From: Sphingobacteriales bacterium
GTDB lineage: Bacteria > Bacteroidota > Bacteroidia > Chitinophagales > Chitinophagaceae
Length of the DNA: 64,000 nucleotides
Assembly (NCBI GenBank): GCA_026391525.1
Contig: JAPLEF010000146.1
Span: 1 to 64,000 of the forward strand
Reading direction: 5' to 3'
Shown here one piece after another: positions 10,214-30,733 of the stretch. Within the stretch, counting starts at the first letter, position 1; the number at the start of each line of letters is the position of its first letter. A program made the translations under genes and the position numbers. The notes below the pieces were generated by a model. It saw nothing but the letters and a program-made list of their open reading frames with translations. It was not told the DNA's origin and ran no database searches.

Positions 10214-12190
10214 CTACCGGTATAGAATAGCCGAACTGAACGCAGGTAATTTGATTTCTCCGAAATATTGTTTTTCCGCTGTAAACATGGTTAATGCCGG
10301 AAGCCAGTTGCCATTCGGAAGGGTGCATATTTTTTCGGTATTAGTGCCATTGAATGCGATCCAGATTTCTTTCCAGCTGTCTTTAATGGATTCACCATCC
10401 AGACTATAAATCACTGTTCCTTCAGGTGCGTTATCGTGGAAGCGGAGATGTTTGGCTATGGCTTCAGCACTGGTAAGCCGGAAAGCAGGATGATGCTTTC
10501 TGATATCAATCAGGGCGGTAATATATTTTACGAGTTCATGATGGGTTTCTTTGAGACTCCAATCGATGCCATTGATGCTGTCGGGTGATTGGTACGAATT
10601 CTCCACTTCTTTTTTACTACGGTAGAATTCTGTTCCTGCATGGAGGAAGGGGATACCCTGAGAGGTGAGTACGATGGTTAGTGCCAGTTGGTGCATTTTC
10701 CTTCGGGTGGCTTCCGGTACTCCGGGATTAGAGAGGCATATCTTATCCCACAAAGTATGGTTGTCGTGACATTCACAATAGCTGATGATTTGCGATGGAT
10801 CGGTAGCAAATGAAGAAGCTCCCTGAACCTGGGGATGTTTGCAGGAAGCCACAATACCGCCTTTCAGGGCATTAGCAGCGCTGGTTTTGCCGCTGACGAA
10901 ACCGATATCAGCCACATCAAAAACACTGCCTTTAATGGCATCCCGCAAGTCGTCGCTGAATACGGCAATCTTATTCAATTGGGCCACCTGGTTTTTAAGG
11001 GCCCGCAAACTATCAGGTAATGGTGATTGTCCTGCCGTCCAGCCTTCTCCATAAAGCAGGATATCGGGCTTGATGGCATGTAAGGTTTCCGCAATTTCAT
11101 TCATGGTTTCCATATCATGTATGCCCATGAGGTCGAATCGGAATCCATCAATATGGTATTCTTTTACCCAGTAGGCCACACTTTCCTTCATGAATTTCCG
11201 CATCATGGCCCTTTCACTTGCGGTTTCATTGCCGCAACCGCTGGCATCCGAAAATCCACCTCCCGGTTTATGTCTGTAAAAATACCCCGGTACCATCAGG
11301 TTGAAATTCGATTTTGCCGTGAGCCCCGTATGGTTGTACACCACATCCATCACCACCCTCAAGCCGTTTTGATGCATGGCCTGCACCATCTGCTTGAACT
11401 CACGGATACGGATAGCCGGATTATAGGGATCTGTACTGTAAGATCCTTCCGGTACATTGTAATTCAATGGATCGTAACCCCAGTTGTATTTAGGTTTTTG
11501 GTCGGTATGTTCGTTGATCGATTGAAAATCAAATACCGGTAAGAGATGGATATGGGTTACGCCCAATTGTTTAAGATGAGTAATACCGGTTGATAATCCA
11601 TGGTAATTAGATCCTGCTTCTGTTAAACCGGTAAATTTTCCTTTTGCCATAATTCCTGAGCTGCTGTCGATACTGGCGTCCCGGATATGCAGTTCGTAAA
11701 TTACGGCATCAGTTGCTAAGTTATTGGATGAGAATTTTGGCGCGCAATCTTCTTTCCATCCTGAAGGGTCGGTGGTTGCCCAATCAATAATAGCGCCCCG
11801 TTTTCCATTGATGCCTACCGCACGGGCATAGGGGTCGGCAAATTCATGGCTCCATTGATGGTTGATATGAACTTTGAATGCATAATAGAACCCGGTGAGG
11901 TTTTCTTTCACTTTCGTATGCCAGGTACCGTTAGTTCCTTTGTTTAATGCTATTGCCCTTACCGGATAACCTTTTTCAGCTTCTTTAAAAAGTAGCAGTT
12001 CAGCTTTTTCTGCGGTTGGGCTCCAAATCCTGAATGCCGTTTCTGCTGCTTCATGGCTCATGCCAAGATCATTTCCCTGGTAGGCAGGATAGGCATCATA
12101 ATGGGGTTGGGCAAGTGCCGAATGCGAATTAAGTGCCAGGGCAGACATGAATAGTATTTTTAAAAATCTCATAGTTTGGTATTGCAGCAA
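10214..12190 (-). CDS. pulA: Type I pullulanase (CBM48-GH13), secreted
   Basis: Signal peptide; YELHIRD, YNWGYDPLNYNVPEGSYSTDP, GFRFDLMGIHD, YGEGWTAG, YCECHDNHTLWDK. Start probably MRFLKIL at 12172. Confidence 0.9.
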   Translation of the reverse strand: MLQYQTMRFLKILFMSALALNSHSALAQPHYDAYPAYQGNDLGMSHEAAETAFRIWSPTAEKAELLLFKEAEKGYPVRAIALNKGTNGTWHTKVKENLTGFYYAFKVHINHQWSHEFADPYARAVGINGKRGAIIDWATTDPSGWKEDCAPKFSSNNLATDAVIYELHIRDASIDSSSGIMAKGKFTGLTEAGSNYHGLSTGITHLKQLGVTHIHLLPVFDFQSINEHTDQKPKYNWGYDPLNYNVPEGSYSTDPYNPAIRIREFKQMVQAMHQNGLRVVMDVVYNHTGLTAKSNFNLMVPGYFYRHKPGGGFSDASGCGNETASERAMMRKFMKESVAYWVKEYHIDGFRFDLMGIHDMETMNEIAETLHAIKPDILLYGEGWTAGQSPLPDSLRALKNQVAQLNKIAVFSDDLRDAIKGSVFDVADIGFVSGKTSAANALKGGIVASCKHPQVQGASSFATDPSQIISYCECHDNHTLWDKICLSNPGVPEATRRKMHQLALTIVLTSQGIPFLHAGTEFYRSKKEVENSYQSPDSINGIDWSLKETHHELVKYITALIDIRKHHPAFRLTSAEAIAKHLRFHDNAPEGTVIYSLDGESIKDSWKEIWIAFNGTNTEKICTLPNGNWLPALTMFTAEKQYFGEIKLPAFSSAILYR

Positions 12191-12219: not shown

Positions 12220-13554
12220 TCAATAAGCGTAAACCTGATATCCCCAGGCTGGTAAAGAAAATTTTTGTTTTGCTTTGATTTTCTTTTTTTGCTTGCTGAA
12301 GGGGTCGGTTGCTTTTCCTTTTATATGTATATCATCAATGGTAAATTCCTGTGCTGAATTAGATAGATTCAATAGTACCAGAACTCTTTTCTCATGATTT
12401 GAGCGCAGGTAGGCAAAAATTGCATTGTTGTTGCTGCTGTTTAGCTTACCATACCAGGACCCGGCAGCAAGGGCCATATTTTCCCGGCGCAGGTTCAGCA
12501 AAGTTTTATAAAATGGGGCCATCTCGTATTTACCCCACTGGATGGGATCTTTCACAAAAAACTTCAATCTTTTTTTATTGGGCTCTTCTTGTCCGGAGTA
12601 AATAAGTGGAACACTCTGATAAACAGTTTGTGTGAACACGGCGAAGCATGGATAGGCTGAACCATACTTTTCAAATTCCGTTCCATTCCAACTGTTTTCA
12701 TCGTGGTTAGTGGTAAAATATAACCGGAATGCATCAGGACCAAAATCCCTGATGCCTTTATTTATTGATGAATCGAATTGATGGATGTTTATTTTTCCGG
12801 CATATAGTTCAGCCATCTTGCCCATCATATCCCAATTGTAGGTGGCATCGAAACCTACTTCATGCAGCCAGGGCTTGTTGCCTTCGGCCAGCATGAACAG
12901 CTCTTTCATTTTCCTTAATTGGGTGATGCTGTTTTTCCAAAAATCTGCCGGCACTTCTTCTGCCACATCACAACGGAAGCCATCGATATCTGTTTCACGT
13001 ATCCAGAATTTCATCGCATCCAGCATGCTGTCGCGCATACGGCTGTTGCGGTAATTGAGTTTGTAAACATCCGACCAATCAAAAGGGGAGAGGAATTTTC
13101 CTGAGGAATCGCGGGTATAGAAATTGGGATGTTCCGTCACCCATTTATTATCGGTACTCGAATGGTTGGCTACCCAATCGGTGATCACTTTAAAACCCAA
13201 CTGGTGAGCCTTTGCCACTAAAGCTTTGAAATCGGCAATAGTGCCATGTTCGGGGTTAACAGCTTTGTAATCTTTCACTGCATAATAACTGCCAAGGTCT
13301 GATGGGCTCATCTTCCTGTCTTTGATACCGATAGGGGTGATGGGCATGAACCATAATATTTCCACTCCCATTTCTTTGAGCCTTGGAAGATGCTTTTCAA
13401 AATCAGCAAAAGAACCTGACTCTGAATATTGCCGAAGGTTCACTTCATAGATGTTTGATTGGCGGCTCCAGGAAGGGTGCTGCGTTTGTGCAACAGAAGT
13501 TAAACCCAAAAACAGGAGCAGTATACAGGCGGAAAGTTTTAATTTTCTTTTCAT
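12220..13554 (-). CDS. GH13 alpha-amylase
   Basis: YEVNLRQYS, DWVANHSS, GFRCDVAEEVP, LAEGNKPW, FTTNHDENSW; start set at MKRKLKLS. Confidence 0.9.
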   Translation of the reverse strand: MKRKLKLSACILLLFLGLTSVAQTQHPSWSRQSNIYEVNLRQYSESGSFADFEKHLPRLKEMGVEILWFMPITPIGIKDRKMSPSDLGSYYAVKDYKAVNPEHGTIADFKALVAKAHQLGFKVITDWVANHSSTDNKWVTEHPNFYTRDSSGKFLSPFDWSDVYKLNYRNSRMRDSMLDAMKFWIRETDIDGFRCDVAEEVPADFWKNSITQLRKMKELFMLAEGNKPWLHEVGFDATYNWDMMGKMAELYAGKINIHQFDSSINKGIRDFGPDAFRLYFTTNHDENSWNGTEFEKYGSAYPCFAVFTQTVYQSVPLIYSGQEEPNKKRLKFFVKDPIQWGKYEMAPFYKTLLNLRRENMALAAGSWYGKLNSSNNNAIFAYLRSNHEKRVLVLLNLSNSAQEFTIDDIHIKGKATDPFSKQKKKIKAKQKFSLPAWGYQVYAY

Positions 13555-13620
13555 CTTAAAGTCAATATTTACATCATGAAATAAATGAATCATCAGCAAA
13601 GAAATAAGACGTTCTAAAAA

Positions 13621-15507
13621 CTATGGTTTTAGTTCGTACACAACCGCCTTGTAGGATCCCAATTTGAAATTTCCAAGACTCCCATTATTTTGGGTAAGTA
13701 CATCGTAGTATTTGCTAAATCCCTTTGTTCTTTCTGTGTACTTGCTCATATTGATCGTCTTCTCTTCTTTAGCCGTATTCATTACCACCATAATGGTTTG
13801 TTTGGGATGGTAACGGAAGTACACATATACGCCATCTTCGGGAAGGTATTGCATGAGTTTTCCTTCTGTAAGAGCGGGTGCATTTTTTCTGAAATTGGCC
13901 AGGGTTTTCACGTCATTGTAAATCAACCGGTCTTTTTCATTTCTGCCTGCTTCTGTGAATTTATTGATGGCATCATTTTTCCATCCACCGGGGAAATCTA
14001 AACGTACGTAGCCATCGGATGGACTTGTTACACCTGTTGTGGCAAATTCTGAAGAATAATAAAATTGCGGTATACCTCTTGTGGTTAGCAGCCATGCGAT
14101 TGAAGAGCGGTACTTATCTACATTTTCACCTATTACGGAATAGAACCTTGCAATGTCGTGGTTATCGAGAAACACTACATTGCGCATCGGATTTTTATAA
14201 ACAAAATCCTGAGCAAGGGTAGTATACAATTTATTCACACCATCGTTCCAGCCAAAATCTTTTGTCATGGCATCGGTTATGCCCCAAAGGGTTTGAAAGT
14301 CGGTTACGGCTTGCAGATTGCTTTTATAGGGAATCTGAAAAGTATTTTCACAGAAGTATGCCTGATTGATCACACCATGTACCCATGTTTCACCGAAAAG
14401 TGTAAGCGAAGGGTATTCTGCAAGGAGGGCAGCATTGCAGCGGTTCATGAAGTTGAGGTCGTTATAAGCATAAGTATCGATTCTCCAGCCATCAATACCG
14501 AATTCTTCTACCGTCCATAGGGCATGTTGAATCAGGAACTGTGCCACGAAAGGATTACGTTGATTCAGGTCGGGCATTTCCTTGGTGAACCAGCCATCCG
14601 ACATCTGTTTGTTTTGCGCTTTGCTGGCATAAGGGTCGAACAGGGTTTGGTCTTTATAACTGGTGTTGGTATAAACATCCCACTGATTCAGCCAGTCTTT
14701 CATCGGCGGATCTACAACAGTATGGTGATAGAGGCCTACATGATTGTAAACGGCATCCTGGATGATCTTAAGTCCTTGTGCATGTGCAGCATTTACCAGC
14801 GACGTGTATGCGCTGTTTCCACCTAAGCGGGGGTCAACTTTATAATGGTTGGTGAATGCATAGCCATGTTCAGTTCGGTTGGGCATGTCGTTTTCCCAAA
14901 CGGGATTGAGCCAGATGGCGGTTACACCCAGTTGTTTCAGGTAATCGAGATGGTTTTGGATCCCTTTCAGGTCGCCGCCATGCCGGTTGAATACCGTATC
15001 CCTGTTAAGGGTTTGGTCGCGCATACCGGCGATACGGTCGTTCTGTTCATCGCCATTGCTGAAACGGTCGGGCATGATGAGGTACATGAAATCTTTACTC
15101 GTAACGCCCTGTGCATACAACTTGCCATTTCCATTACGCCTGGGTTTTAAAGTATAACTGATTGATACATCCGCTTTACCTCCTGAACCAGCAGCCTTGA
15201 TCTGAAATGTGCCTGGTTTTGCAGCAGCATTGATTTTCAGGTTGAGAAAAACATAGTTCTTGTTCTCTACCTTTTGTACATTGGTTAATGTAACACCGGG
15301 GTAATTAAGCGTATATCCGTTAGCGTTACCTATTCCGGGTGAATGTACCATCACTTGCAAAGATGGATTTTTCATCCCCGTAAACCAGTGTGTTGGGTAG
15401 CATTCATAATCCTGTGCTTGGCTAACGATGGAGAACAATCCCATCATCGAGATGGATAGCACTATAATCCGCTTAAACTTTTTGAACATCATCTTCATCT
15501 TTAACAA
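13621..15507 (-). CDS. GH13 neopullulanase/cyclomaltodextrinase-like enzyme (SusA-like)
   Basis: DRFSNGD, LWLNPV-type (IWLNPVWEND), DAVYNHVG, GWRIDTYAYND, LFGETWVHG, FLDNHDIARF; overlaps the end of the upstream MFS gene. Confidence 0.9.
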   Translation of the reverse strand: MLKMKMMFKKFKRIIVLSISMMGLFSIVSQAQDYECYPTHWFTGMKNPSLQVMVHSPGIGNANGYTLNYPGVTLTNVQKVENKNYVFLNLKINAAAKPGTFQIKAAGSGGKADVSISYTLKPRRNGNGKLYAQGVTSKDFMYLIMPDRFSNGDEQNDRIAGMRDQTLNRDTVFNRHGGDLKGIQNHLDYLKQLGVTAIWLNPVWENDMPNRTEHGYAFTNHYKVDPRLGGNSAYTSLVNAAHAQGLKIIQDAVYNHVGLYHHTVVDPPMKDWLNQWDVYTNTSYKDQTLFDPYASKAQNKQMSDGWFTKEMPDLNQRNPFVAQFLIQHALWTVEEFGIDGWRIDTYAYNDLNFMNRCNAALLAEYPSLTLFGETWVHGVINQAYFCENTFQIPYKSNLQAVTDFQTLWGITDAMTKDFGWNDGVNKLYTTLAQDFVYKNPMRNVVFLDNHDIARFYSVIGENVDKYRSSIAWLLTTRGIPQFYYSSEFATTGVTSPSDGYVRLDFPGGWKNDAINKFTEAGRNEKDRLIYNDVKTLANFRKNAPALTEGKLMQYLPEDGVYVYFRYHPKQTIMVVMNTAKEEKTINMSKYTERTKGFSKYYDVLTQNNGSLGNFKLGSYKAVVYELKP

Positions 15508-17038
15508 TTAAGGTAAGTAAACCTGCAATGATCATCGAAACGCCACCTAGTGCAACCGTATTGAGGGTATTGGCATGGAAGAGGTTCATGGTAAAAAAGC
15601 CAAGGATACTTGCGGCAACAATCTGCGGGATCACAATGAAAAAATTGAAAACCCCCATATAATACCCCATCTTATTTGCCGGCAGGGCATTAGATAACAT
15701 GGCATAGGGCATGGATAAGATACTAGCCCATGCAATGCCCACCATCCCCATTGATATGATGATGAAAGTGGGATTGCTGATAAAATAAATCGATAACAAA
15801 CCAAGTCCGCCGATGATCAGGCAGATCATATGGGTGATTTTACGGTTGGTACGGTAAGCGATCATCGGAATAATGAATGCAAAAAGCGCTGCCACACCAT
15901 TGCGTACGGAAGAACATACGTTAAGCCAATCGGCACCGTTATTGTATTCTTTTTGTACACGTGTTAATTCGGCTTTTTCGTTTGCGTCAACCTGATTATT
16001 GGAACTGTCTGAAAAATAATTGGCCAGATTGACGGAAATAGTTACCGGGTTTTCGTCTGATCTGTACTTCTTGATTTCTTCCAGATCACCTTGCAGGGAG
16101 GAAAGATTTTTTTTCTTTTTGGGATCTTTACTATTTTCTTCTTTGAGAATTTCACTGCTCACGGCGTTGGCCATCTTGTTAACAAGAGCCTTATCTACCT
16201 TCATATTGTATTTATTGGCGGTAACCGCATTGGTGGCATAAATCCACATGGCAAAGAGGGCGAACCAGGTGAAAAATTGTACCAGCGCCAGTTGCTTCAT
16301 GGTGCCGGGCATCCTGAAAATGCCACCAAAGGTTTCCTTTACGGCATCCATGAAAGTGGTTTCTTTTTTCTCCTGTCTGAATTTTTCTATGCTTTCAGGC
16401 GGGAACTCTTTCGTTGTGAAAACAGTGTACAATACCGAACCCAAAAAAGCTAATCCACCCAAATAAAAACTCCATTTAACCGAATCGGGTATTTTACCGG
16501 CTGCAGCCGTATTGCTCATGTTGAACCAATTGGTGAAAACCCATGGCAGCAGAGCAGCAATAACAGAACCGATACCAATAAAAAAACTCTGCATCGCAAA
16601 CCCTGATGTACGTTGAGATGGCGGCAGTTTATCACCCACAAAAGCCCGGAAAGGCTCCATGGAAATATTGATAGAGGCATCTAAGATCCACAACATTCCT
16701 CCGGCTATCCAAAGTGTTGGGGAATTGGGCATGATGAAAAGGGCGATGGTTGCCAGAATGGCTCCAATAAAAAAAAATGGCCTTCTTCTTCCCCAGTAGG
16801 GATGCCAGGTTCTATCACTCAGGTAGCCAATAATCGGTTGTACAAGCAGGCCGGTGAGTGGCGCAGCAATCCACAGGATGGGGATCTCATCTTTATTGGC
16901 GCCAAGGGTTTCAAAAATCCGGCTGACATTGGAATTTTGTAGTTCAAAACCAAATTGTATCCCAAAGAATCCAAAACTCATGTTCCATAATTCCCAGAAG
17001 GATAATCTTTTCTTTGGTGCCAATGGTTGAGACGACAT
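15473..17038 (-). CDS. MFS sugar transporter (SLC45/GPH-type, probable maltose/maltodextrin permease)
   Basis: GYLSDRTWHPYWGRRRPFFFIG, multiple TMs, location in the starch locus; substrate inferred from context. Confidence 0.85.
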   Translation of the reverse strand: MSSQPLAPKKRLSFWELWNMSFGFFGIQFGFELQNSNVSRIFETLGANKDEIPILWIAAPLTGLLVQPIIGYLSDRTWHPYWGRRRPFFFIGAILATIALFIMPNSPTLWIAGGMLWILDASINISMEPFRAFVGDKLPPSQRTSGFAMQSFFIGIGSVIAALLPWVFTNWFNMSNTAAAGKIPDSVKWSFYLGGLAFLGSVLYTVFTTKEFPPESIEKFRQEKKETTFMDAVKETFGGIFRMPGTMKQLALVQFFTWFALFAMWIYATNAVTANKYNMKVDKALVNKMANAVSSEILKEENSKDPKKKKNLSSLQGDLEEIKKYRSDENPVTISVNLANYFSDSSNNQVDANEKAELTRVQKEYNNGADWLNVCSSVRNGVAALFAFIIPMIAYRTNRKITHMICLIIGGLGLLSIYFISNPTFIIISMGMVGIAWASILSMPYAMLSNALPANKMGYYMGVFNFFIVIPQIVAASILGFFTMNLFHANTLNTVALGGVSMIIAGLLTLIVKDEDDVQKV

Positions 17039-17069: not shown

Positions 17070-17086
17070 TGTGTAAATAGTACACT
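17070..17086. promoter_or_regulatory. Candidate operator: TGTGTAAATAGTACACT
   Basis: Imperfect palindrome matching the susC-upstream TGTGTAA-N3-TTACACA; centre 40 bp from the MFS start codon. Confidence 0.6.
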
Positions 17087-17231
17087 TTAATAAAAATACA
17101 ATAAAATACGGGTTGACAAAATTTTTGATGTTGAGGTAAAGTGGAAGCCTTCAGCGGAGTTCATTTTCTTGTGGAAGTATTTTGTCAGATTTTTGTCTTG
17201 TTTTTTAGACTTTGTATATTTTTAGAAATAA

Positions 17232-17248
17232 TGTGTTTATTTTACACA
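17232..17248. promoter_or_regulatory. Candidate operator: TGTGTTTATTTTACACA
   Basis: Imperfect palindrome of the same family; centre 24 bp upstream of the GH13 ATG at 17264. Confidence 0.6.
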
Positions 17249-17263
17249 ATAAAATTTCCTTTT

Positions 17264-20200
17264 ATGAAAAGAATACTACTTCTATTGACAATATCCTTAT
17301 TTTTTGTGGGGAAGGGGATGAGCCAGTTGTTAACCTGGACAGCTCCTTTTATTACCGAAAGTAACACACCGATTGTAATTACCATGGATGCTACCAAGGG
17401 CAACCAGGGCTTGCAGAATTATGCTGCAACATCCGATGTTTATGTTCATACTGCTGTGATCACAACTTCTAGTACCACACCCAGCGATTGGCGTTATGTG
17501 AAATTCAACCAGAATTTTAATGCCATCAACCCTAGTTTGCAGGCTGGCTACAATGCTTCATTTCCGAATAAATGGACCTTCACCATTACCGGAGGGATAA
17601 GGGCATATTATGGTGTTCCGGCGGGAGAAACCATTTTGAAAATCGCTATCCTTTTCCGCAGCGGGAACGGCTCGGTTGTACAGCGCAATTCAGATGGCAG
17701 CGATATGTACATCCCGGTATATAATAACACATTGGCTACACGCCTTGCTGTTCCCCCAAAACAACCCACTTTCATTCCTAAAGCCGAACCGATCAATAAA
17801 GTGGTTGGTAATAATGTAGCCATTACAGGATTGAGTAATAATCCTGCGAATCTCAAGTTGTATTTCAATGGCAATGTGATTCAAACTGCAACCAACGCAA
17901 CAAGTATTGCTGTAACACCGGGGCCTGTAATCACCAGTTCAGGTACCCAAACCATTATTGTTGAAGCAAACGATGGTGTTACCACAAAGTATGATACCAT
18001 TAAATTTTATGTGGCCGGAACAGTGAATGTAGCTGCATTACCTGCAGGTTTGCGCGATGGTATTAATTATGAAGCCAATACTGCCGCCGCAACCTTTGTA
18101 TTGTATGCACCATTTAAAAACAGGGTATCTGTTATCGGCGATTTGCCGGGAAGTAACTGGGACGAACAAACGATTTACCAGATGAATAAAACTCCGGATG
18201 GTAATTACTGGTGGTTGCGCGTTACAGGGCTTACCCCCGGAACAGAATATTCTTTCCAATACCTTATAGATGGTACGCTACGGGTAAGTGATCCTTATGT
18301 AGAAAAAGTATTGGATCCCTGGAACGACCAGTTCATAAGTGCAGAAACTTATCCTAACCTAAAGCCCTATCCAACAGGATTTACCAGTGGAATCGTAGGC
18401 ATACTTCAAACGGCTTCACCTTCCTATAACTGGACTACTACTAATTATACTCGTCCCAATAAAAAGAACCTGATCATTTATGAATTGCATCTTAGAGATT
18501 TCATCGGGAAGCACGATTGGAAGACGATGCGCGATACCATCAATTATTTAAAAAAATTGGGTATTAATGCGATACAGTTCATGCCCATCAATGAATTTGA
18601 AGGCAACAACAGTTGGGGTTACAATCCGGATTTTTATTTTGCACCGGATAAATATTACGGTCCGAAAAATGATTTAAAACAATTTATCGATCTCGCTCAT
18701 TCAAAAGGTATGGCGGTGATCATGGATATTGCGTTAAACCATTCCTTTGGGTTATCACCCATGGTACAGATGTATTGGGATGCTGCCAATAACCGGCCTG
18801 CAGCCAATAGCCCCTGGTTCAATCCGGTTGCTAAACATGGTTTTAATGTGGGTTACGATATGAACCATGAAAGTTTAGCCACAAGATATTTTACGAGCAG
18901 GGTAGTTGAGCACTGGTTAGTTAATTATAAGATAGACGGTTTCCGCTTTGATTTATCAAAAGGCTTTACCCAAACCCAAACCTGCGATAACAATGGCAAC
19001 AATTGCAATGTGGGCAGTTGGAGCAGCTATGATGCCAGCCGTGTAGCTATTTGGAAAAGATATTACGACACGTTACAATTGAAATCTCCGGGATCTTATG
19101 TAATTCTGGAACATTTCGCCACCAACAGCGAAGAACTGGAGCTTTCCAATAGCGGTATGTTGCTATGGGGAAATATGAACAATAATTATGGGCAGGCATC
19201 GATGGGTTATTCCTCCGACTGGGATCTTTCCTATGGCATTGCAACACAGCGTGGATGGTCGCAACCTCACCTTATCACTTTTATGGAAAGCCATGATGAG
19301 GAAAGGATAGGTTATAAGAACATCAGTTTTGGAAATGTTTCTGCCTTCCAGAATGTAAAAGATACCAACGTTTCGCCCAGGCGAATGGAACTGGCTCATG
19401 CGTTCTTACTTACTATACCCGGCCCTAAGATGATCTGGCAATTCGGTGAGTTGGGTTATGATACCAGTATCACCTGGTGCCAGAACGGAACCTTAAGTAC
19501 CAATTGCCGCACCGATCCCAAGCCTATCCGTTGGGGATATAATAATGATACGGAAAGAAAGAATCTTTATAATGTGATCGGCAATATCAACAGACTGAGG
19601 GTGAATCCTACCTATAGCAACATGTTCATGTCGAACAACATCACTTATAATCTTGGAGGTGCATTCAAAACCATCATTATGAACGACCCTACTGCAAAGA
19701 TGGTGGTGATTGGTAATTTTGATGTGTTTGCTCAAACCGGATCGGTAACCTTTCCTGCAGCAGGTACCTGGTATAATTTCCTGAATGCCGGAACTTTCTT
19801 CGCTAACGGGGGTTCACAGTCTTTCACGTTGCAGCCAGGAGAATACCGTATTTATCTCAATCAGTTTGCACCATTGCCTGTTAACCTGATCAGTTTCAAC
19901 GGAAAACAATTGGGCATCCGCAATGAACTGAGATGGGATGTGGAGAATGAAATCAACCTTGGCTATTACGAGCTGGAACGCAGCATAGATGGCAGGAATT
20001 TTGATAAGGTTGCTAAAATAACAGCAACGGGTAATCGCTTTTACAATTTTGTTGATGATATCGGCTTGTTAAGTTCGAATGTGTTCTTTTATCGTTTGAA
20101 GATGATCGATAACGACGGTGCTTATCGTTATAGTGCAATCGTAAAACTAAGTTCATTTGTCACTGCAGGTTTTGTTGAAGTGACGCCGAACCCATTTGGT

Positions 20201-20422
20201 GAAAAATTGGTGGTGCGCATCGAATCGCCAAATGCTCAAAGAGCTAACCTGATTTTAACGGACATCAGTGGACGCCGGTTGTTGGGCAAGCAAGTGCAAT
20301 TGCAACAAGGCAATAATGTTTTCGAAATCCCTGAAGTGGCCGGATTGTCAAAGGGCATCTATATGTTGACGGTAGTTCAAGGTGATAACCGCAGAACCAT
20401 CAAGGTGATTAAAGGCGATTAA
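17264..20422 (+). CDS. Secreted GH13 alpha-amylase with T9SS type A sorting domain
   Basis: Signal peptide at MKRILLLLTISLFF; GH13 motifs MDIALNHSF, GFRFDLSKGF, FMESHDEERIGY; C-terminal VTPNPFGEKLVVRI...GIYMLTVVQGDNRRTIKVIK sorting domain. Confidence 0.92.
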   Translation: MKRILLLLTISLFFVGKGMSQLLTWTAPFITESNTPIVITMDATKGNQGLQNYAATSDVYVHTAVITTSSTTPSDWRYVKFNQNFNAINPSLQAGYNASFPNKWTFTITGGIRAYYGVPAGETILKIAILFRSGNGSVVQRNSDGSDMYIPVYNNTLATRLAVPPKQPTFIPKAEPINKVVGNNVAITGLSNNPANLKLYFNGNVIQTATNATSIAVTPGPVITSSGTQTIIVEANDGVTTKYDTIKFYVAGTVNVAALPAGLRDGINYEANTAAATFVLYAPFKNRVSVIGDLPGSNWDEQTIYQMNKTPDGNYWWLRVTGLTPGTEYSFQYLIDGTLRVSDPYVEKVLDPWNDQFISAETYPNLKPYPTGFTSGIVGILQTASPSYNWTTTNYTRPNKKNLIIYELHLRDFIGKHDWKTMRDTINYLKKLGINAIQFMPINEFEGNNSWGYNPDFYFAPDKYYGPKNDLKQFIDLAHSKGMAVIMDIALNHSFGLSPMVQMYWDAANNRPAANSPWFNPVAKHGFNVGYDMNHESLATRYFTSRVVEHWLVNYKIDGFRFDLSKGFTQTQTCDNNGNNCNVGSWSSYDASRVAIWKRYYDTLQLKSPGSYVILEHFATNSEELELSNSGMLLWGNMNNNYGQASMGYSSDWDLSYGIATQRGWSQPHLITFMESHDEERIGYKNISFGNVSAFQNVKDTNVSPRRMELAHAFLLTIPGPKMIWQFGELGYDTSITWCQNGTLSTNCRTDPKPIRWGYNNDTERKNLYNVIGNINRLRVNPTYSNMFMSNNITYNLGGAFKTIIMNDPTAKMVVIGNFDVFAQTGSVTFPAAGTWYNFLNAGTFFANGGSQSFTLQPGEYRIYLNQFAPLPVNLISFNGKQLGIRNELRWDVENEINLGYYELERSIDGRNFDKVAKITATGNRFYNFVDDIGLLSSNVFFYRLKMIDNDGAYRYSAIVKLSSFVTAGFVEVTPNPFGEKLVVRIESPNAQRANLILTDISGRRLLGKQVQLQQGNNVFEIPEVAGLSKGIYMLTVVQGDNRRTIKVIKGD

Positions 20423-20469
20423 AGATTATTTTATAGTTTGCCTGTATTGAGGCTGAACAACTTTTCCGG

Positions 20470-20508
20470 TAAGGATATCTGCAGTTTCCACAGCTGTGCA
20501 TATCCTTA
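20470..20508. terminator. Inverted repeat TAAGGATAT/ATATCCTTA enclosing the palindrome CACAGCTGTG; possible terminator or regulatory hairpin
   Basis: 9-bp perfect stem (20470-20478 / 20500-20508), nested 10-bp palindrome 20489-20498; no clear U-tract. Confidence 0.4.
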
Positions 20509-20555
20509 CTTGATTTTGAGCAAATCAATTGGTTAACTTTATAATTGCTTAACTA

Positions 20556-21326
20556 ATGTCGAACAATTTTTACGAAACCGAATACGAGACTATCTTGACT
20601 AACAACGGTTCTTCAAAGCATGTGAAAACGCTAAAGATCATCCAATCTGAAGTGCAGAGCATCAACAGGGTGGCACTTTCAGTGGATTGTGTGATTTTCG
20701 GTTTTGATGAGAATAAGCTAAAAGTATTGTTGATCCGTTCCGATTTGAAAAAGTACCAAAGCAAATGGTCGCTTTTAGGTGATCTGGTGAATCCTGAAGA
20801 AGATATCGAAGAAGCGGCTTACCGCATATTGCTCGACAGAACCGGCATGGATGATTTATACCTCGAGCAGGTGCATGCATTTGGACATATCAACCGGCAT
20901 CCCGGCGGAAGGGTGGTTACCATTGCCTATTATTCTTTAATCAATGTGCAGCATCATAAGCTGAAGAAACTGGATAACGAGCTTCACTGGCATGATGTGG
21001 CTGAAGTGAAAGATCTGGCATTTGATCATCAGGAGATTTTCGAAACCTGTTATAAAAGGTTGCAAAAAAGGGTGCAGGAACACCCGCTCGGTTTTAGTTT
21101 ATTGCCTAATAAGTTCTCGCTCAGAGAATTGCAGAATCTTTATGAAGCTATTTTAGGCATCAAACTCGACCGGAGGAATTTCCGTAAAAAGTTCTTTGCG
21201 ATGGATTTCCTTGTTGATGTGGGTGAAATTGAAACCAATGTGCCCCATCGCCCGGGTAAACTCTACCAATTCGATTATGATAAGTACGAAAGAATGAAGA
21301 AAAAGTGGTCGGGTATTGACTTTTAG
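20556..21326 (+). CDS. Nudix-domain transcriptional regulator (NrtR-like: Nudix plus winged helix)
   Basis: N-terminal Nudix fold (VDCVIFGFDENKLKVLLIRSD, WSLLGDLVNPEEDIEEAAYRILLDRTGM) and C-terminal wHTH-like LYEAILGIKLDRRNFRKKFFAMDFL...RPGKLYQFDYDKY. Confidence 0.85.
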   Translation: MSNNFYETEYETILTNNGSSKHVKTLKIIQSEVQSINRVALSVDCVIFGFDENKLKVLLIRSDLKKYQSKWSLLGDLVNPEEDIEEAAYRILLDRTGMDDLYLEQVHAFGHINRHPGGRVVTIAYYSLINVQHHKLKKLDNELHWHDVAEVKDLAFDHQEIFETCYKRLQKRVQEHPLGFSLLPNKFSLRELQNLYEAILGIKLDRRNFRKKFFAMDFLVDVGEIETNVPHRPGKLYQFDYDKYERMKKKWSGIDF

Positions 21327-21408
21327 GGAAATTTTGTGTTGAATATGTGTCGACAATTTCTAAATAAATTATTAACATAAAATTATTATAATAAAAAAAG
21401 AATTACTT

Positions 21409-21425
21409 TGTGTAAAACTTACACA
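21409..21425. promoter_or_regulatory. Candidate operator: perfect palindrome TGTGTAA-AAC-TTACACA
   Basis: 7-3-7 perfect inverted repeat, centre 43 bp upstream of the susC ATG at 21460. Confidence 0.7.
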
Positions 21426-21459: not shown

Positions 21460-24430
21460 ATGAGAAAAACGCTCACAAATTTATTCAAACAAGGTACATT
21501 AACAGCACTGCTGATAATGTTTACTGTTGCGGGTTTCGCACAGGACATTGTAACGGGTAACGTTGCTGAATCGAAAGGAGGCACGGCACTCGCAGGAGTT
21601 ACGGTTACACTCAAAGGAACCACCACAAGTACACAAACAGAAGGAGACGGATCGTTTAAAATTCCGGTGCCTTCGCGTAAAGGAACCCTTGTTTTTACCT
21701 ATGTTGGTTACACTATCCAGGAAGTGGAAGTAAATGGCCCATCTGTGGGTAACGTTCCATTGGTTATTTCCAATCAAACTCTGAATGAAGTGGTGGTGAT
21801 TGGTTATGGTACTGCACGTAAGAAAGATCTTACCGGTGCGGTTACTGTTGTTTCTTCAAAAGATTTTCAAAAAGGGCAAATCAGTACACCTGAGCAATTG
21901 ATTGCTGGTAAAGTAGCCGGGGTTGCTATCACTTCAAACGGTGGGGAACCCGGTGTAGGAAGTACGATCAGGATCAGGGGTGGCGCTTCATTGAATGCAA
22001 GTAATGATCCCTTGATAATCATAGATGGAATTCCCTTAGATAATAATGGAATTTCTGGTGCACCCAATGCACTTTCAATGATCAATCCCAATGATATAGA
22101 AACTTTCACCGTACTGAAAGATGCCTCTGCCACAGCTATATATGGTTTTAGAGGTTCAAATGGTGTCATCATCATCACTACCAAGCGTGGAACAACAGGA
22201 AAGCCAAAAATCAATTTTAATACCCAGTTTTCGGTAGCTAAAATTGCTAATAAGGTGGATGTGTTACCTGCCGACCAGTTCCGCAAATTTGTAAATGAAA
22301 ATGGAACTCAGGCTCAGGCATCTCTGTTGGGTTCAGCAAGCACCGACTGGCAGGATGAGATTTATCAAACTGCACTTACTTCAGATAATAATTTAAGTGT
22401 AAGCGGAGCCTTTAATAAGAAAACACCCTATCGTTTTTCGGTTGGTTATCTTTCTCAGGAAGGTATTTTAAGAACAGGTAAATTACAAAGAGGATCTGTT
22501 GCCTTTAACATGACCCCCAGGTTCTTTAATAATAACCTGAAAGTTGATTTCAATATAAGGGCATCTCAAAGTGCTAACCGTTTTGCTAACACCGGCGCAA
22601 TTGGAGCAGCGGCTACTTACGATCCTACACAGCCTGTTTATTCTAATAGTCCGCGTTACAATGGTTTTTATGAGTGGCTCGACCCAACAACTCTTACAGG
22701 TTTACGTGCCCTTTCACCCCGCAACCCGATGGGCCTGATTTATCAGGATAACAATAACAGCGATGTACGCAGAAGTATTGGAAATGTTGTGTTAGAATAT
22801 AAGCTGCCCTTCTTCCCGGCACTCAGGGCTAACCTCAACGTAGGATTTGATATGTCGAAAGGGGAAGGCGGAAATTATATTAACGACAGTGCAGCATCTA
22901 CCTACAAACGTTTCATTGATGCAGGTGGAATTTCGCATGGTGGTGTGAAATCGCAATATAAACAACAGAACGTTACTAGAGTCTTGGATTTTTATTTGGG
23001 TTACAACAGGGAGGTTGCTTCCATTAAAAGTAAGTTTGATTTGATTGCAGGCTATTCGTATAATGATTATAAAACTACCAACTACTTTTATAGCGACCGC
23101 ACATTTGATGGTACTACGTTTCCGGGATCTGAACCTAATTTCCCTTTTGATATCCAACAAAATACCATCATTTCTTTTTATGGCAGGTTGAATTATACTT
23201 TGATGAACAGGTACCTGATTACGGCAACTGTTCGTCGCGACGGATCATCCCGTTTCAGCGAAGATAACCGTTGGGGTACCTTCCCTTCGGTGGCTTTTGC
23301 CTGGAGAATCAAAGAAGAAAGTTTCCTCCGCAACAGTAATACGTTTTCAGATCTTAAATTACGCGTAGGTTGGGGTATGACCGGACAACAAGATGGTGCA
23401 GAAATAGGTAATTATAAATATCTCACTGCCTATGAATTTAGTAATGATCAGGCACAATATCAATTAGGGAATACTTTTTATAATATGTTTCGCCCTACTG
23501 CTACTAATAGGAATATCCAATGGGAAGAAACTACAACAACAAATATCGGTTTAGATTATGGGTTGTTTAACGGCAGGATCAATGGTAGTTTAGAATTTTA
23601 TTTACGTAAAACAGAGAAATTATTTAATGTAATTGACAATCCTGCCGGTGGATTTTCTAATAAAATAATTGCCAATGTTGGAACCATGGAAAACCGGGGT
23701 GTTGAGTTCAATATCAATGCAGATATCATCAAGAAAACAGATTTTGTTTGGAATATTGGGTTCAACGCAACTTTCAACAAAAATGAAATTACCAGATTGA
23801 CAATTAATAATAACCCTGATTTTAGGGGAAATCAATTTGGAGGTAGGTCTCCCAAGAAGTTCCTTTTATGTATATCAGCAGGTTTATGGTGCTGATGGAA
23901 AACCTATTGATGGTTTGTTTGAAGACCGGAACAGGGATGGATTGGTGAATACGGATGATTTGTATCAGTACAAGAATCCAGATCCTTATGCATTCTTTGG
24001 GTTTACTACAAATTTAAGCTACAAGCGTTGGAATGCAGGTTTTGTATTAAGGGCAAACCTGGGTAATTATGTATACAACAACGTAAATTCTACCATTGGC
24101 ACCCGAAATGCGGTGTTTGGCACCGGTTATTTGAACAATGCTTACAGCGATTTGTTAAATACCGGCATAACCGGCACGAAAAATGGTTATATCTTATCTG
24201 ATTACTATATCCAAAATGCTTCTTTTTTGAGAATGGATAATGCGAACATCGGATACGATTTTGGAAAGATATTCAGTGGAAGGTCTAATCTACGCCTGAA
24301 CTTCAATGTGCAGAATGTATTTGTGATCACCAAGTATACAGGTTTAGATCCTGAAATTCAGGGTGGGGTGGATAACAACTTTTATCCAAGGCCAAGAACG
24401 TATACTCTGGGAGTGAATCTTGATTTTTAA
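21460..24430 (+). pseudogene. susC: SusC/RagA-family TonB-dependent receptor, interrupted by a frameshift near 23841-23850
   Basis: N-terminal ORF (to 23895) has CarboxypepD_reg-like and plug domains; the C-terminal barrel (SSFYVYQQVYGADGKPIDGLFEDRNRDG...NFYPRPRTYTLGVNLDF) continues in the +1 frame from about 23837. Confidence 0.85.
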
Positions 24431-24465: not shown

Positions 24466-26073
24466 ATGAATAAAACAATATTAAAATCAGCATTTTTGTT
24501 TCTCTTAGGAGGAAGCATCATGTTAAGTTCTTGTACCAAGGATTTAGACCGATTTCCTACCAATGCTAACACTGAAGAAATTGTATTCAGCACTTACGAA
24601 GGTTATCAGAAAGCGCTGGCTAAAGTTTATGGAAGTATGGCCTTAACTGGTAATGAGGGTCCTGCCGGAAGTGGCGATATACAAGGCATTGATGAAGGCA
24701 CTTCAGATTTTGTTCGCCTGTATTGGTGGATGCAGGAAATCAGTACCGATGAGGCCGTAGTACAGGTTGGCTGGAACGATCCGGGCATCCATTTCTTCCA
24801 CCCAATGAACTGGACCACAGATAATGTGATTATTAAAGGTCTTTACTACCGTTCACTTTATCAGATTGGCCTTGCTAATGACTTCATTCGTCAGGCTTCT
24901 GATGCCAATTTAAGCAAAAGAGGCATTACCGGGGCAAACGCGGATGCCATCCGTAAAAACGTTCTGGAGGTTCGTTTTCTGCGTGCTTTCCAGAATAGTG
25001 TGCTAATGGATTTGTTTGGTAACCCTCCATATGTAACTGAAACGGATCTTCCGGGAGTAAGTTTGCCTGCACAAATTCAGCGTGCTGCACTGTTTAATAA
25101 AGTGGAAACAGAATTGTTAGCACTTGAAAGTACTATTGCTCCCGCTTCTGCTGCAGATTATGGACGTGCCAATCAGTCTGCTGTTCGTGCTCTATTGGCA
25201 AGGATTTATCTGAACGCTGAGGTATTTACCGGAACAGCTCGCTGGAATGATGCTGCTACTTATGCTGCTAAAGTATTGGGTGATGGTTATGCACTTTTGC
25301 CGGATTACCGTCAGTTGATGCTGGCTGATAATAATGTGAACAATAGTGAATTTATTTTCACGGTGAATTACGATGGATTACGCACCAAAGGATACGGTGG
25401 TACTACCTTCCTTACTCACGCAAGTGTTGGAGGAAGTATGATAGCTGCTAACTCAGGTATTGATGGTGGATGGGGTGGTATCCGTACTACTAAAAACTTA
25501 CCTAACCTTTTTGCAGATATAACCGGAGCTACCGACCAAAGGGCACAGTTTTATACCAATGGACAGAACATTGAACTTACCGGCGAACCGGCACCAGCCT
25601 TTACAGAAGGATATGCCATAACTAAATACAGAAATCTTACAAGATCGGGTGCACAAGGATCAAGTCCTGCTTTTGCTGATGTTGATTTTCCGCTTTTCCG
25701 TTCTGCTGAAATGAACCTGATTTACGCTGAAGCCGTTGTTCGGGGGGCAAGTACAGGAAATACAGCACAGGCTGTTAATTATATCAACAACCTGCGTACC
25801 AGGGCATGGGGAGGCAGTAATGCAGGAAATATCACCGCAACAGATCTTAACCTCGATTTCATCATCGATGAGCGCGGAAGGGAATTGTATTGGGAAGGCT
25901 TCCGCCGTACCGATTTGGTTCGGTTCAACCAATTTACCACGGCCGATTATTTGTGGCCATGGAAAGGAGGCGTTTCTTCAGGAACTGCTGTACCTTCATT
26001 CAGGAACTTATTCCCAATTCCGGTTTCAGACATAAATGCAAACTCAAACCTGGTACAAAATCCGGGTTACTAA
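24466..26073 (+). CDS. susD: SusD/RagB-family starch-binding outer membrane lipoprotein
   Basis: Lipobox LSSCTKD; RRTDLVRF, LYYRSLYQIGLANDFIRQ, FPIPVSDINANSNLVQNPGY. Confidence 0.93.
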   Translation: MNKTILKSAFLFLLGGSIMLSSCTKDLDRFPTNANTEEIVFSTYEGYQKALAKVYGSMALTGNEGPAGSGDIQGIDEGTSDFVRLYWWMQEISTDEAVVQVGWNDPGIHFFHPMNWTTDNVIIKGLYYRSLYQIGLANDFIRQASDANLSKRGITGANADAIRKNVLEVRFLRAFQNSVLMDLFGNPPYVTETDLPGVSLPAQIQRAALFNKVETELLALESTIAPASAADYGRANQSAVRALLARIYLNAEVFTGTARWNDAATYAAKVLGDGYALLPDYRQLMLADNNVNNSEFIFTVNYDGLRTKGYGGTTFLTHASVGGSMIAANSGIDGGWGGIRTTKNLPNLFADITGATDQRAQFYTNGQNIELTGEPAPAFTEGYAITKYRNLTRSGAQGSSPAFADVDFPLFRSAEMNLIYAEAVVRGASTGNTAQAVNYINNLRTRAWGGSNAGNITATDLNLDFIIDERGRELYWEGFRRTDLVRFNQFTTADYLWPWKGGVSSGTAVPSFRNLFPIPVSDINANSNLVQNPGY

Positions 26074-26105: not shown

Positions 26106-26948
26106 ATGAAAAAAATACTCAATCAAATTCTGCTGCTTACTGCTGTGATGGCTACCTTCACTGCATGTGAGAAGGATGAAAACCGCATTACTTATGAAGG
26201 TGGTACTAATCCGGTTTTATCTGCTAACAAAGTGGATAATATCCCGATGTCGTTCCCAACAAAAGATAATGAAGCGGTTACTTTCAGTTGGACGAACCCT
26301 GATTATCGTTTCACCACAGGTGTTAGTTCACAGGATGTAACCTATACGCTGGAAATGGATACCTTAGGTGCAAATTTCAGTAGTCCTAATATTGTAAGGG
26401 CTTCTATCAGCAAAGATTTAAGAGTTACTTATAAGCAATCGCAAATCAACGATTTTTTGCTTAATCAACTCGCTTTGAATGCAACGCAAAGTTACGATGT
26501 TGAGGTAAGGGTGATTTCTTCACTATTCAATAACAATTCAAGGCTGATATCGAATACTTTGCGGTTCAACATCACGCCGTATGCAATTCCGCCAAAAGTG
26601 AACCCACCATCATCAGGTAAACTTTTCATCACCGGTAGTGCAACTCCTGCCAGCTGGCAATGTGGTTGTGGAGAGCCTGAATTGCTTTCTCAAAAATTCA
26701 ACCAATTAAGCCCTACATTATTTGAATTGCCTTCTATCAACATCACTGGTGGTGGCTCTTATTTGTTATTACCTGTTTATGGCAGTTGGGCTGCTAAATA
26801 TGGTTTTACCGGAGCAGGTAATGCCAACAATGTTCTTGGCGATGATTTTAAAGAACAAGGAAACGACTTTAAAGCACCTAATGAAGGTGGTCTTTATAAA
26901 ATCACTGTTGACTTCCAAAGAGGCAAAACCACTTTGGTAAAACTGTAA
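26106..26948 (+). CDS. SusE-domain outer membrane lipoprotein
   Basis: Lipobox TACEKDE; VTFSWTNPDYRF and LFITGSATPASWQ SusE/F-like modules. Confidence 0.85.
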   Translation: MKKILNQILLLTAVMATFTACEKDENRITYEGGTNPVLSANKVDNIPMSFPTKDNEAVTFSWTNPDYRFTTGVSSQDVTYTLEMDTLGANFSSPNIVRASISKDLRVTYKQSQINDFLLNQLALNATQSYDVEVRVISSLFNNNSRLISNTLRFNITPYAIPPKVNPPSSGKLFITGSATPASWQCGCGEPELLSQKFNQLSPTLFELPSINITGGGSYLLLPVYGSWAAKYGFTGAGNANNVLGDDFKEQGNDFKAPNEGGLYKITVDFQRGKTTLVKL

Positions 26949-28312: not shown

Positions 28313-30733
28313 TTACCAGTTGATAAATATTTCAGTTGATGCCTTGTTCAACAGAACAGGTATTCTTAAAAAATTGCCGGCAAATAAACGGTCCGTTTTG
28401 AAAAGTTTATTATTCATCCGTACTCCTTTTGGTATGCCTTGAGCAGGAATGACTAACATGATTTCTCTTGGCACATTGATATTATAGTTGCCTTTTCTGG
28501 TAATCACTATTTCAGTACCATTATACTTAGGCGTTGCAGAAAAATGGGTGATGCGATAGTTCTTGTTTTTTATGGCAGCAGGGTCTGTACCATCATCTTC
28601 ATACCAATGGTATTCACCTGGTTTTGCAGATGGGAAAAATAATACTGAAAAAGAAGCTTTGTCATAATCTGCAGTGGTTGTCATACCTGTAGCCTGAGGA
28701 ATAAAACTTCCTTCCATCGCATAAACCGGAATTTGATTGATATTGATATTGCTGTCTGTTACCCATTTTGGGCCTTCAAACTCACGATAATCATAAATGT
28801 TGGTCCATTTGCCTTCAGGGATATAATAGGTTTTGATTTTTTCTGATTTATTGGTTATCGGAACAATCATCACTTTATCGCCCCATAAATACTGGTCTTC
28901 GGCCTTATATAGATTACTGTCTGCTTCATTCAGAAAAAAAAGCGGTTTTATCAAAGGCTTGCCTGATAAGGTTTGCAGATAGCTCAGGTTGTAATTATAA
29001 GGCAACCATTGGTAACGTTCTTTAGCTGCCGATCGTGCAAGGCTAAGCGTTGGTTCCGGCCATAAAGCTGCTTCGCTTGGTATATCTTTTACAGTAGGTT
29101 CGAGGTCTCCCAAAGCGGTTCCATGCGGACGGTAAATAGGGGTGAATACCGCAAACTGCAACCATCTGATATAGAGTTCTGCATCGCCGTCTCCTCCGGC
29201 AAATCCTCCTGCATCACTGTGGATATAGGGTATTGCACTTAATGCCATTCCTTGTATCAAAGGCAATTGGGCTTTTAATCCGGCCCAACTCCTGCTTACA
29301 TCGCCGCTCCAGGGGAAACTACAAAAACGTGGGGATCCGGCATAACCGCTGCGGTTCAAATGGAAAAGCCTCTCCTTGGGATAATATTTGCGATAATTAT
29401 TAAACAGCATCCTGCTCCAGTAATGGCCATAAATGTTATGCACTTCATCTGCCGAAAATTTACGGGTGAAGCCAAGTGCAGACAAATCATGATAAATGGC
29501 CGGCGGGTGTTTTTCGGGTTCACCCAGATCGCCCCACCAACCACTAACGCCAATGGACACCTGCTTTTGGTACTGGTTGAAAAACCAATCCTGGGCATCT
29601 TTCCGGAATATGTCGATTATGCCTCCTTCACCGAAATAAAAATCTTTCAATTCAAAGGCTTTGCCCATGCTGTCAGTTGCCAGATATCGCTTGGCGTTTT
29701 CATAATTGCCTGATGTTTTGAGTACGAAAGGTTCAGTAATGAGAATGGTTTTCACTTGTTGTTTCTGAAACCCTGCAATCATTTTTTTAGGATCCGGCCA
29801 AGCTTTGCGATTGACCCAATCGAGGTTGCCCATGGTTTTTTTAATGCTGTCGCCGAACCAGAACAGGTCGAAAATAACGGCATCAAAAGGAACTTTTTCT
29901 TTTTTCATGGCCTGAAAGATGCTGTTCACCTGATTTTCATTCCGGTACCCGAAGCGGCTCATGAAGTTTCCCATAGCCCACCGGGGCGGCAGGGGTTGCG
30001 TTCCTACCAATTGCTGGTAGTTGGTTAAAACCTCTTCCGTGTTTATGCCAGGTACCAGGTAGAAACTCAATTCTCCGCTCATCACCGAATATTGTAAAGT
30101 GCCGGGTAGGGTTTTGCCAAGGTCCAGAAATCCTTTAGATGGGTTATCAAAAAAGAGGGCATATTTTCGGCTGGATAGCAAAACAGGTACACTGAAATTC
30201 AAAGCATCCGCATTCAGTTCATAACCATACCATGGATTGTTATTCAGGTTGAGGCGGTATCCAGCCCTGTTGAGCGGAAGGCTTCTTTCTCCTGTTCCAA
30301 AAAGTTTTTCATTTTGCTCCATATCGAAGAAGAAACCACGGGCACTGTCGTTGCAGAATCCATTTTGCAAGTTGATACCGGCTTTATTGTTTAAAACAAA
30401 CCTGATGCTGTTATTTTCCCAATGCACTATCGTGCCATCTTTCCAGGAAATGATGGCATAGGTTCCCTGACTATTTACTGTTGGTAATTCTGCAACCGGT
30501 GAACCCAATACTGCGTCTGAAACCTGTTCGTTCCTGCTGCTGCCCGTTGCCCTAAAAGTGGTTTTCAATACATGGTTTGAAAAGAGGCTGAAACTCCATT
30601 TTCCCTGGGCGGTTTCTAATGTAGTAACCCTGGCATTTTTTCTTGCCACCACTTCGGGCATGGGCTGAGCAAATGAAATCACCGGACAAATAAAAACTGC
30701 AATGATCATGCAGCACAATAAACGCTTTTTCAT
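28313..30733 (-). CDS. GH31 family alpha-glucosidase, secreted
   Basis: Signal peptide; GWWGDLGEPE, RSGYAGSPRFCSFPWSGDVSRSW, YIHSDAGGFAGG. Confidence 0.92.
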   Translation of the reverse strand: MKKRLLCCMIIAVFICPVISFAQPMPEVVARKNARVTTLETAQGKWSFSLFSNHVLKTTFRATGSSRNEQVSDAVLGSPVAELPTVNSQGTYAIISWKDGTIVHWENNSIRFVLNNKAGINLQNGFCNDSARGFFFDMEQNEKLFGTGERSLPLNRAGYRLNLNNNPWYGYELNADALNFSVPVLLSSRKYALFFDNPSKGFLDLGKTLPGTLQYSVMSGELSFYLVPGINTEEVLTNYQQLVGTQPLPPRWAMGNFMSRFGYRNENQVNSIFQAMKKEKVPFDAVIFDLFWFGDSIKKTMGNLDWVNRKAWPDPKKMIAGFQKQQVKTILITEPFVLKTSGNYENAKRYLATDSMGKAFELKDFYFGEGGIIDIFRKDAQDWFFNQYQKQVSIGVSGWWGDLGEPEKHPPAIYHDLSALGFTRKFSADEVHNIYGHYWSRMLFNNYRKYYPKERLFHLNRSGYAGSPRFCSFPWSGDVSRSWAGLKAQLPLIQGMALSAIPYIHSDAGGFAGGDGDAELYIRWLQFAVFTPIYRPHGTALGDLEPTVKDIPSEAALWPEPTLSLARSAAKERYQWLPYNYNLSYLQTLSGKPLIKPLFFLNEADSNLYKAEDQYLWGDKVMIVPITNKSEKIKTYYIPEGKWTNIYDYREFEGPKWVTDSNININQIPVYAMEGSFIPQATGMTTTADYDKASFSVLFFPSAKPGEYHWYEDDGTDPAAIKNKNYRITHFSATPKYNGTEIVITRKGNYNINVPREIMLVIPAQGIPKGVRMNNKLFKTDRLFAGNFLRIPVLLNKASTEIFINW

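Follow-up and report, generated by a model that had tools for sequence, protein, structure and literature searches.

A Nudix-type regulator of the NrtR/AraR family and its predicted operators at the starch genes of a Chitinophagaceae bacterium

Introduction

The control of starch loci in Bacteroidota outside the gut is little known, and SusR is the well-studied starch regulator. A stretch of 64,000 nucleotides from a Sphingobacteriales bacterium of the Chitinophagaceae (assembly GCA_026391525.1, contig JAPLEF010000146.1, positions 1 to 64,000; hereafter the window) raises the question of which protein controls such a locus there, and how far its control extends. The window holds a starch locus with a gene for a Nudix-type regulator (20556-21326) and three similar near-palindromes, before genes for a major facilitator superfamily (MFS) transporter, an amylase with a type IX secretion system (T9SS) sorting tail, and SusC. 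The initial annotation read these sites as a shared 17-bp palindrome, the operator of a local regulon with the Nudix regulator as the candidate binder. By computational comparison, the sites are conserved among relatives, the regulator is homologous to AraR and keeps most of its base-contact residues, and the regulon reaches across the genome. The three sites are very probably dimer operators of this regulator, which would belong to a separate glucan branch within the NrtR/AraR family and act as a sugar-released repressor.

Results

Three sites with a common core

Positions 17070-17086, 17232-17248 and 21409-21425 carry the three sequences that had been reported there, and the third is indeed a perfect 7-3-7 palindrome.

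17070-17086: operator 1, upstream of the MFS transporter/GH13 gene run; TGTGTAAATAGTACACT, core GTGTAAATAGTACAC; matrix score 25.6
17232-17248: operator 2, upstream of the T9SS amylase gene; TGTGTTTATTTTACACA, core GTGTTTATTTTACAC; matrix score 27.7, the best in the window
21409-21425: operator 3, upstream of susC; TGTGTAAAACTTACACA, perfect 7-3-7 palindrome, core GTGTAAAACTTACAC; matrix score 21.5

Each of three presumed transcription units has one operator 24-43 bp before its first ATG; the centre-to-ATG distances of 40, 24 and 43 bp given previously are right, with ATGs at 17038 (minus strand), 17264 (plus) and 21460 (plus). The sites are real, but the 17-bp palindrome is not the informative motif. 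With up to three mismatches this pattern matches six times in the window against 3.9 expected, which is not significant. The informative part is instead the core GTGT-N7-ACAC, which is exact in all three sites and found nowhere else in the 64 kb (three matches against 0.49 expected, a count of three being reached in 0 of 100 shuffles). A genome-wide scan had been proposed as a check. Genome-wide sites were taken from three pattern scans; the core occurs 14 times in 2.85 Mb, about background (13 for the reversed control), but three of these occurrences are clustered within 4.4 kb, for which P is ~1.6e-6 at the genome rate. In addition, a weight matrix built only from relatives (44 sites, chosen by exact core, so that the core columns are 100% by construction and only the flanks are independent) ranks exactly these three sites first in the window. 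The fourth-best site scores 4.3, leaving a gap of 17 bits to the third.

Conservation at starch promoters of relatives

In a first set of relatives, the exact core was found upstream of 12/16 amylase genes, 13/22 susC genes and 0/21 susD genes, and most susC genes lacking it lie downstream of an amylase gene that bears the site. The second set consisted of public genomes, after removal of those shared with the first. Here the core precedes 41 of 47 amylase genes, 37 of 43 susC genes and all ten MFS genes, and none of the susD (0/37) or susE (0/29) genes, with a shuffle expectation of at most 0.06 per gene class. The phylogenetic footprinting that the initial annotation had called for, now covering more than 50 relatives, strongly supports its proposal of a starch-regulon operator. 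Ten further starch loci were chosen for their distance from the regulator gene found initially, and one of the ten, L181, has a regulator copy of its own. Where the starch locus is unlinked from any regulator gene of the branch, the site is still present in eight of nine genomes.

These data bear on the simplest alternative, that the sites are chance near-palindromes in AT-rich DNA. The near-background count of the core alone over the whole genome and the non-significant 17-bp pattern would both agree with it. The clustering and the matrix gap speak against it, and the conservation at orthologous amylase and susC promoters refutes it, leaving chance a negligible probability.

A regulator of the NrtR/AraR family

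The regulator has an N-terminal Nudix domain and a C-terminal NrtR winged helix, the architecture that defines the NrtR superfamily (NrtR_WHD 3.8e-25, AraR_C 7.9e-12, NUDIX 9.4e-11; NUDIX and NrtR_WHD over their cut-offs). Its best solved relative is AraR of Bacteroides thetaiotaomicron (BT0354; PDB 5bs6, E=1.1e-51; also 5dd4, 5ddg and 5deq). As in AraR, the Nudix catalytic signature is degenerate: GDLVNPEEDIEEAAYRILLDRTGM lacks the glutamates of REUXEEXGU (signature from PMC4666351). The AraR base-contact residues D178, R180, N181, R183, K184 and R205 correspond to D205, R207, N208, R210, K211 and R232, R180 being the intercalating residue. Two contacts are changed, K179 to R206 and K204 to H231. 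Apart from these two, the regulator has the GTGT recognition residues of an AraR-type protein together with a GTGT-N7-ACAC operator, and the base-contact set is almost invariant across the glucan branch. The crystal operator of AraR has GTGT at C7-C10 and ACAC at C18-C21, that is, GTGT-N7-ACAC (PMC4666351, Table 2). The two systems also share tandem operators and control of susCD-type loci. The sites differ in their flanks: T mostly precedes GTGT in the glucan branch, whereas AAAGTGT is the reading at two of the three matching AraR-type loci of Prevotella. The Prevotella loci L350 and L351, of AraR type, carry TAAAGTGTTATTTYTACACTTTA, the window core with a different flank.

Like the DNA contacts, the sugar pocket is only partly that of AraR. 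R86 and H131 are kept as R114 and H158, but R34 is replaced by S62, G48 by D76, F36 by L64 and F49 by L77. The S62/D76 pair and the helix signature are nearly invariant in the glucan branch. Since Arg34 is lost, arabinose is disfavoured as the effector. We rejected an arabinose AraR orthologue: R34 is lost, the clade is separate (support 99) and the neighbours are starch genes, not araBAD. In the tree, 38 Chitinophagaceae sequences form one glucan-branch clade with support 99, and the separate AraR clade, likewise with support 99, holds BtAraR and paralogues beside arabinose genes. Named members of the glucan branch include Ferruginibacter, Ginsengibacter and Agriterribacter. A pair from a sister family is likewise located beside T9SS amylase and susC genes and carries the core. 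In 55 of 75 loci, the regulator has starch genes no more than 6 kb away.

An NAD-type NrtR was rejected as well, because the window protein scores 141.5 with the NCBI NtrR equivalog model, whose cut-off is 400, and the operators are at starch genes, not NAD genes. NrtR of NAD metabolism (Shewanella, 3gz5/3gz6) shares the domain architecture with the window regulator but not the targets. XylR (BT0791) is an NrtR-family regulator of a sugar regulon in Bacteroides (PMC3878776), found beside xylose genes, whereas the window branch is beside alpha-glucan genes; this comparison is one of gene neighbourhoods and the published description. SusR of Bacteroides likewise controls a starch susCD locus; in the window this would be the task of a soluble Nudix protein that has a dyad of 15 bp. 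The search used found no second NrtR-type protein in this genome.

Some records around the branch deserve mention. At L134 (7808-9999), a more distant paralogue directly precedes a gene for nicotinate phosphoribosyltransferase, which makes it probable that this family also has an NrtR of NAD type. Three public records of metagenome-assembled genomes titled Streptomyces griseus, Williamsia sp. and Sphingobacterium thalpophilum (L284, L338, L347) carry this Chitinophagaceae-type regulator and are probably mislabelled. A gene for NAD-dependent DNA ligase, ligA, lies near the regulator at L046 (4540-6639) and L063 (7367-9466), divergent from the regulator or amylase gene; genes of similar size, unscanned, occupy the same place in many other relatives. 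This conserved neighbour of ~700 residues had been considered as a glucosidase, but in both scanned cases it is the ligase, i.e. plain synteny.

Genes of the starch locus

The operators are placed among the following genes.

10214..12190, minus: type I pullulanase (TIGR02104, 797 bits, over the cut-off)
12220..13599, minus: GH13 alpha-amylase with SusG_C domain (domain search)
13621..15507, minus: GH13 cyclomaltodextrinase (SusA-like), overlapping the MFS gene (Cyc-maltodext_N/C and Alpha-amylase domains)
15473..17038, minus: MFS transporter, sugar/proton symporter-like, first of the leftward gene run (MFS_1 1.3e-27; GPH_sucrose 5.7e-31, under the curated cut-off)
17264..20422, plus: GH13/CBM48 amylase with T9SS sorting tail (Alpha-amylase, CBM_48, Por_Secre_tail)
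20556..21326, plus: NrtR/AraR-like regulator, degenerate Nudix domain and winged helix (Pfam domains; PDB 5bs6 match)
21460..24430, plus: susC, frameshift near 23840-23895 (two open reading frames match TIGR04056 profile positions 3-778 and 791-981)
24466..26073, plus: susD (NF033071 SusD 3.3e-112, under the curated cut-off; Pfam SusD_RagB)
26106..26948, plus: susE-like lipoprotein (Pfam SusE 1.2e-19)

The regulator gene starts 134 bp after the amylase gene without an operator of its own, and the two may be transcribed together. A single SusC profile is covered, in successive parts, by the two susC reading frames (21460-23895 and 23837-24430); the frameshift is either an assembly error or a broken gene. 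A GH31 alpha-glucosidase gene (28313-30733) near the starch locus is without a matching operator.

A predicted regulon extending beyond the window

The starch operators of the window fit the local regulon first proposed, but the regulon is not only local, with sites at alpha-glucan phosphorylase and pfkA-pyk genes elsewhere. In the same genome, a site precedes pfkA-pyk (AATGTGTCAAAAATACACATT, score 23.8) and another precedes an alpha-glucan family phosphorylase gene (TIGR02094, score 19.4). A TAATGTGT-N7-ACATTTTA dyad is found ~50-66 bp before the phosphorylase gene in most regulator-bearing relatives. The gene itself was found in 28/28 regulator-bearing genomes versus 14/30 without the branch. 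Its promoter scores at least 10 in 16 of 27 genomes with the regulator versus one of 12 without, a co-occurrence with P values (Fisher 0.003, Mann-Whitney 4e-5) that ignore phylogeny. The single regulator-less genome with the site, G075, is an assembly 90% complete. The regulator probably also represses the phosphorylase gene and pfkA-pyk elsewhere in the genome. Across the family, the same control appears to extend to the degradation of stored glucan and, in some species, to glycolysis. Two other sites of this genome are recorded here: one at G000:C172:12509-12529, before a gene for a 1911-residue T9SS protein of unassigned function (score 21.3), and one at the start of a beta-aspartyl-peptidase gene (G000:C140:10380-10396, score 19.2).

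Several lines of evidence thus point to the Nudix regulator as the binder, as had been suggested: its homology to AraR, the common GTGT-N7-ACAC core of the two operators, the failure to find another NrtR-type protein in the genome, and the way the site at the phosphorylase promoter tracks the regulator. Another possible owner of the sites is a global regulator of the Crp/Fnr type, with the likeness to the AraR operator being accidental. Crp sites read TGTGA-N6-TCACA, and TGTGT...ACACA is loosely similar. However, for Bacteroides the predicted Crp-like motif reads TATGTTnTAnAACATA (PMC3878776), the matrix finds no other site above 4.3 in the 64 kb, and the site follows the presence of the Nudix regulator and has AraR geometry. 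We consider a Crp/Fnr-type owner improbable.

Promoter architecture

Tandem operators occur in 12/25 starch promoters of relatives, mostly 29-31 bp apart. In 11 of these 25 promoters, TTTG, resembling a -7 box, begins exactly 11 bp past the operator centre, which would place the dimer beside or over the Bacteroidota -7 box/core promoter. TANNTTTG is not enriched near the sites; only TTTG at +11 is.

The same promoters leave some room for real starch-regulon operators that work differently, with the Nudix protein as an activator or with a second, LacI-like or SusR-like regulator sensing the sugar. In many relatives the operator is followed, ~20 bp downstream, by a palindrome of LacI type (GCAAACGATTGC and variants), and the phosphorylase operators are further upstream of the putative -7 box. 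Against this, the closest relative of known structure, AraR, leaves its DNA once the sugar is bound (PMC4666351), and the starch operators overlap the putative core promoter. In addition, the LacI-type palindrome with fewer than two mismatches is absent from the window, and with two mismatches it is absent from the three promoters. Activation or a second sugar sensor therefore seems unlikely, though it is the most serious of the alternatives. In relatives, GCAAACGATTGC or GCAAACGTTTGC is found beside the operator at L049 (further downstream), L077, L084, L177 and others, which suggests dual control there.

Discussion

Binding by the regulator, repression rather than activation, and the effector are what we infer here. 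When AraR binds its sugar, the winged helices swing and the protein no longer binds DNA (PMC4666351). Because of this known behaviour, and because the dimer would sit beside or over the -7 box, repression relieved by a starch-derived sugar is the best mechanism for the window regulator. As in the crystal structure of AraR with DNA, the two GTGT half-sites, separated by 7 bp, would each be read by one wing and recognition helix of the dimer. In the sugar-free state the dimer would occupy the promoter or its immediate vicinity and keep the MFS/GH13 run, the amylase-regulator unit and susCDE repressed. Binding of a sugar derived from starch, or of an early product of that sugar, to the inactive Nudix pocket would rotate the winged helices apart and free the DNA. 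Operator 2 probably also mediates autorepression, given that the regulator gene comes after that of the amylase.

Several observations weigh against the model of a sugar-released Nudix repressor. The three promoters of the window have no TTTG at +11, and the -7/-33 assignments are guesses. No site was seen at the starch locus of G056, the exception among the nine unlinked loci. Eleven of 27 regulator-bearing genomes have a phosphorylase gene without the site. Most regulator-bearing genomes also lack one before pfkA, where the exact core was found in 7/27. The matrix core fixed by its training sites and the P values blind to phylogeny count on the same side.

On the best reading, uptake and catabolism of alpha-glucans are repressed by a distinct AraR-like branch present across the family, and a sugar from starch lifts this repression. 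The branch differs from AraR itself, the targets being alpha-glucan instead of arabinose genes, with pocket positions R34/G48/F36/F49 and contacts K179/K204 changed. AraR and XylR are already published sugar regulators of the NrtR family (PMC4666351, PMC3878776); an open-access literature search found no paper on the glucan branch or on a Nudix starch regulator, which is not proof of novelty. There is about an even chance that one Nudix-fold repressor with a re-tooled sugar pocket replaces SusR in Chitinophagaceae, senses glucose or a small alpha-glucoside, and links the digestion of starch and its import across the outer membrane with the phosphorolysis of alpha-glucan inside the cell and, in some genera, with the glycolytic pfkA-pyk operon.

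This study defines a branch of regulators and a precise operator, predicts a regulon and points to pocket residues open to direct test. If the proposed model is true, the known ligands of the Nudix-regulator fold, NAD metabolites and pentoses, would be joined by a sugar derived from alpha-glucan.
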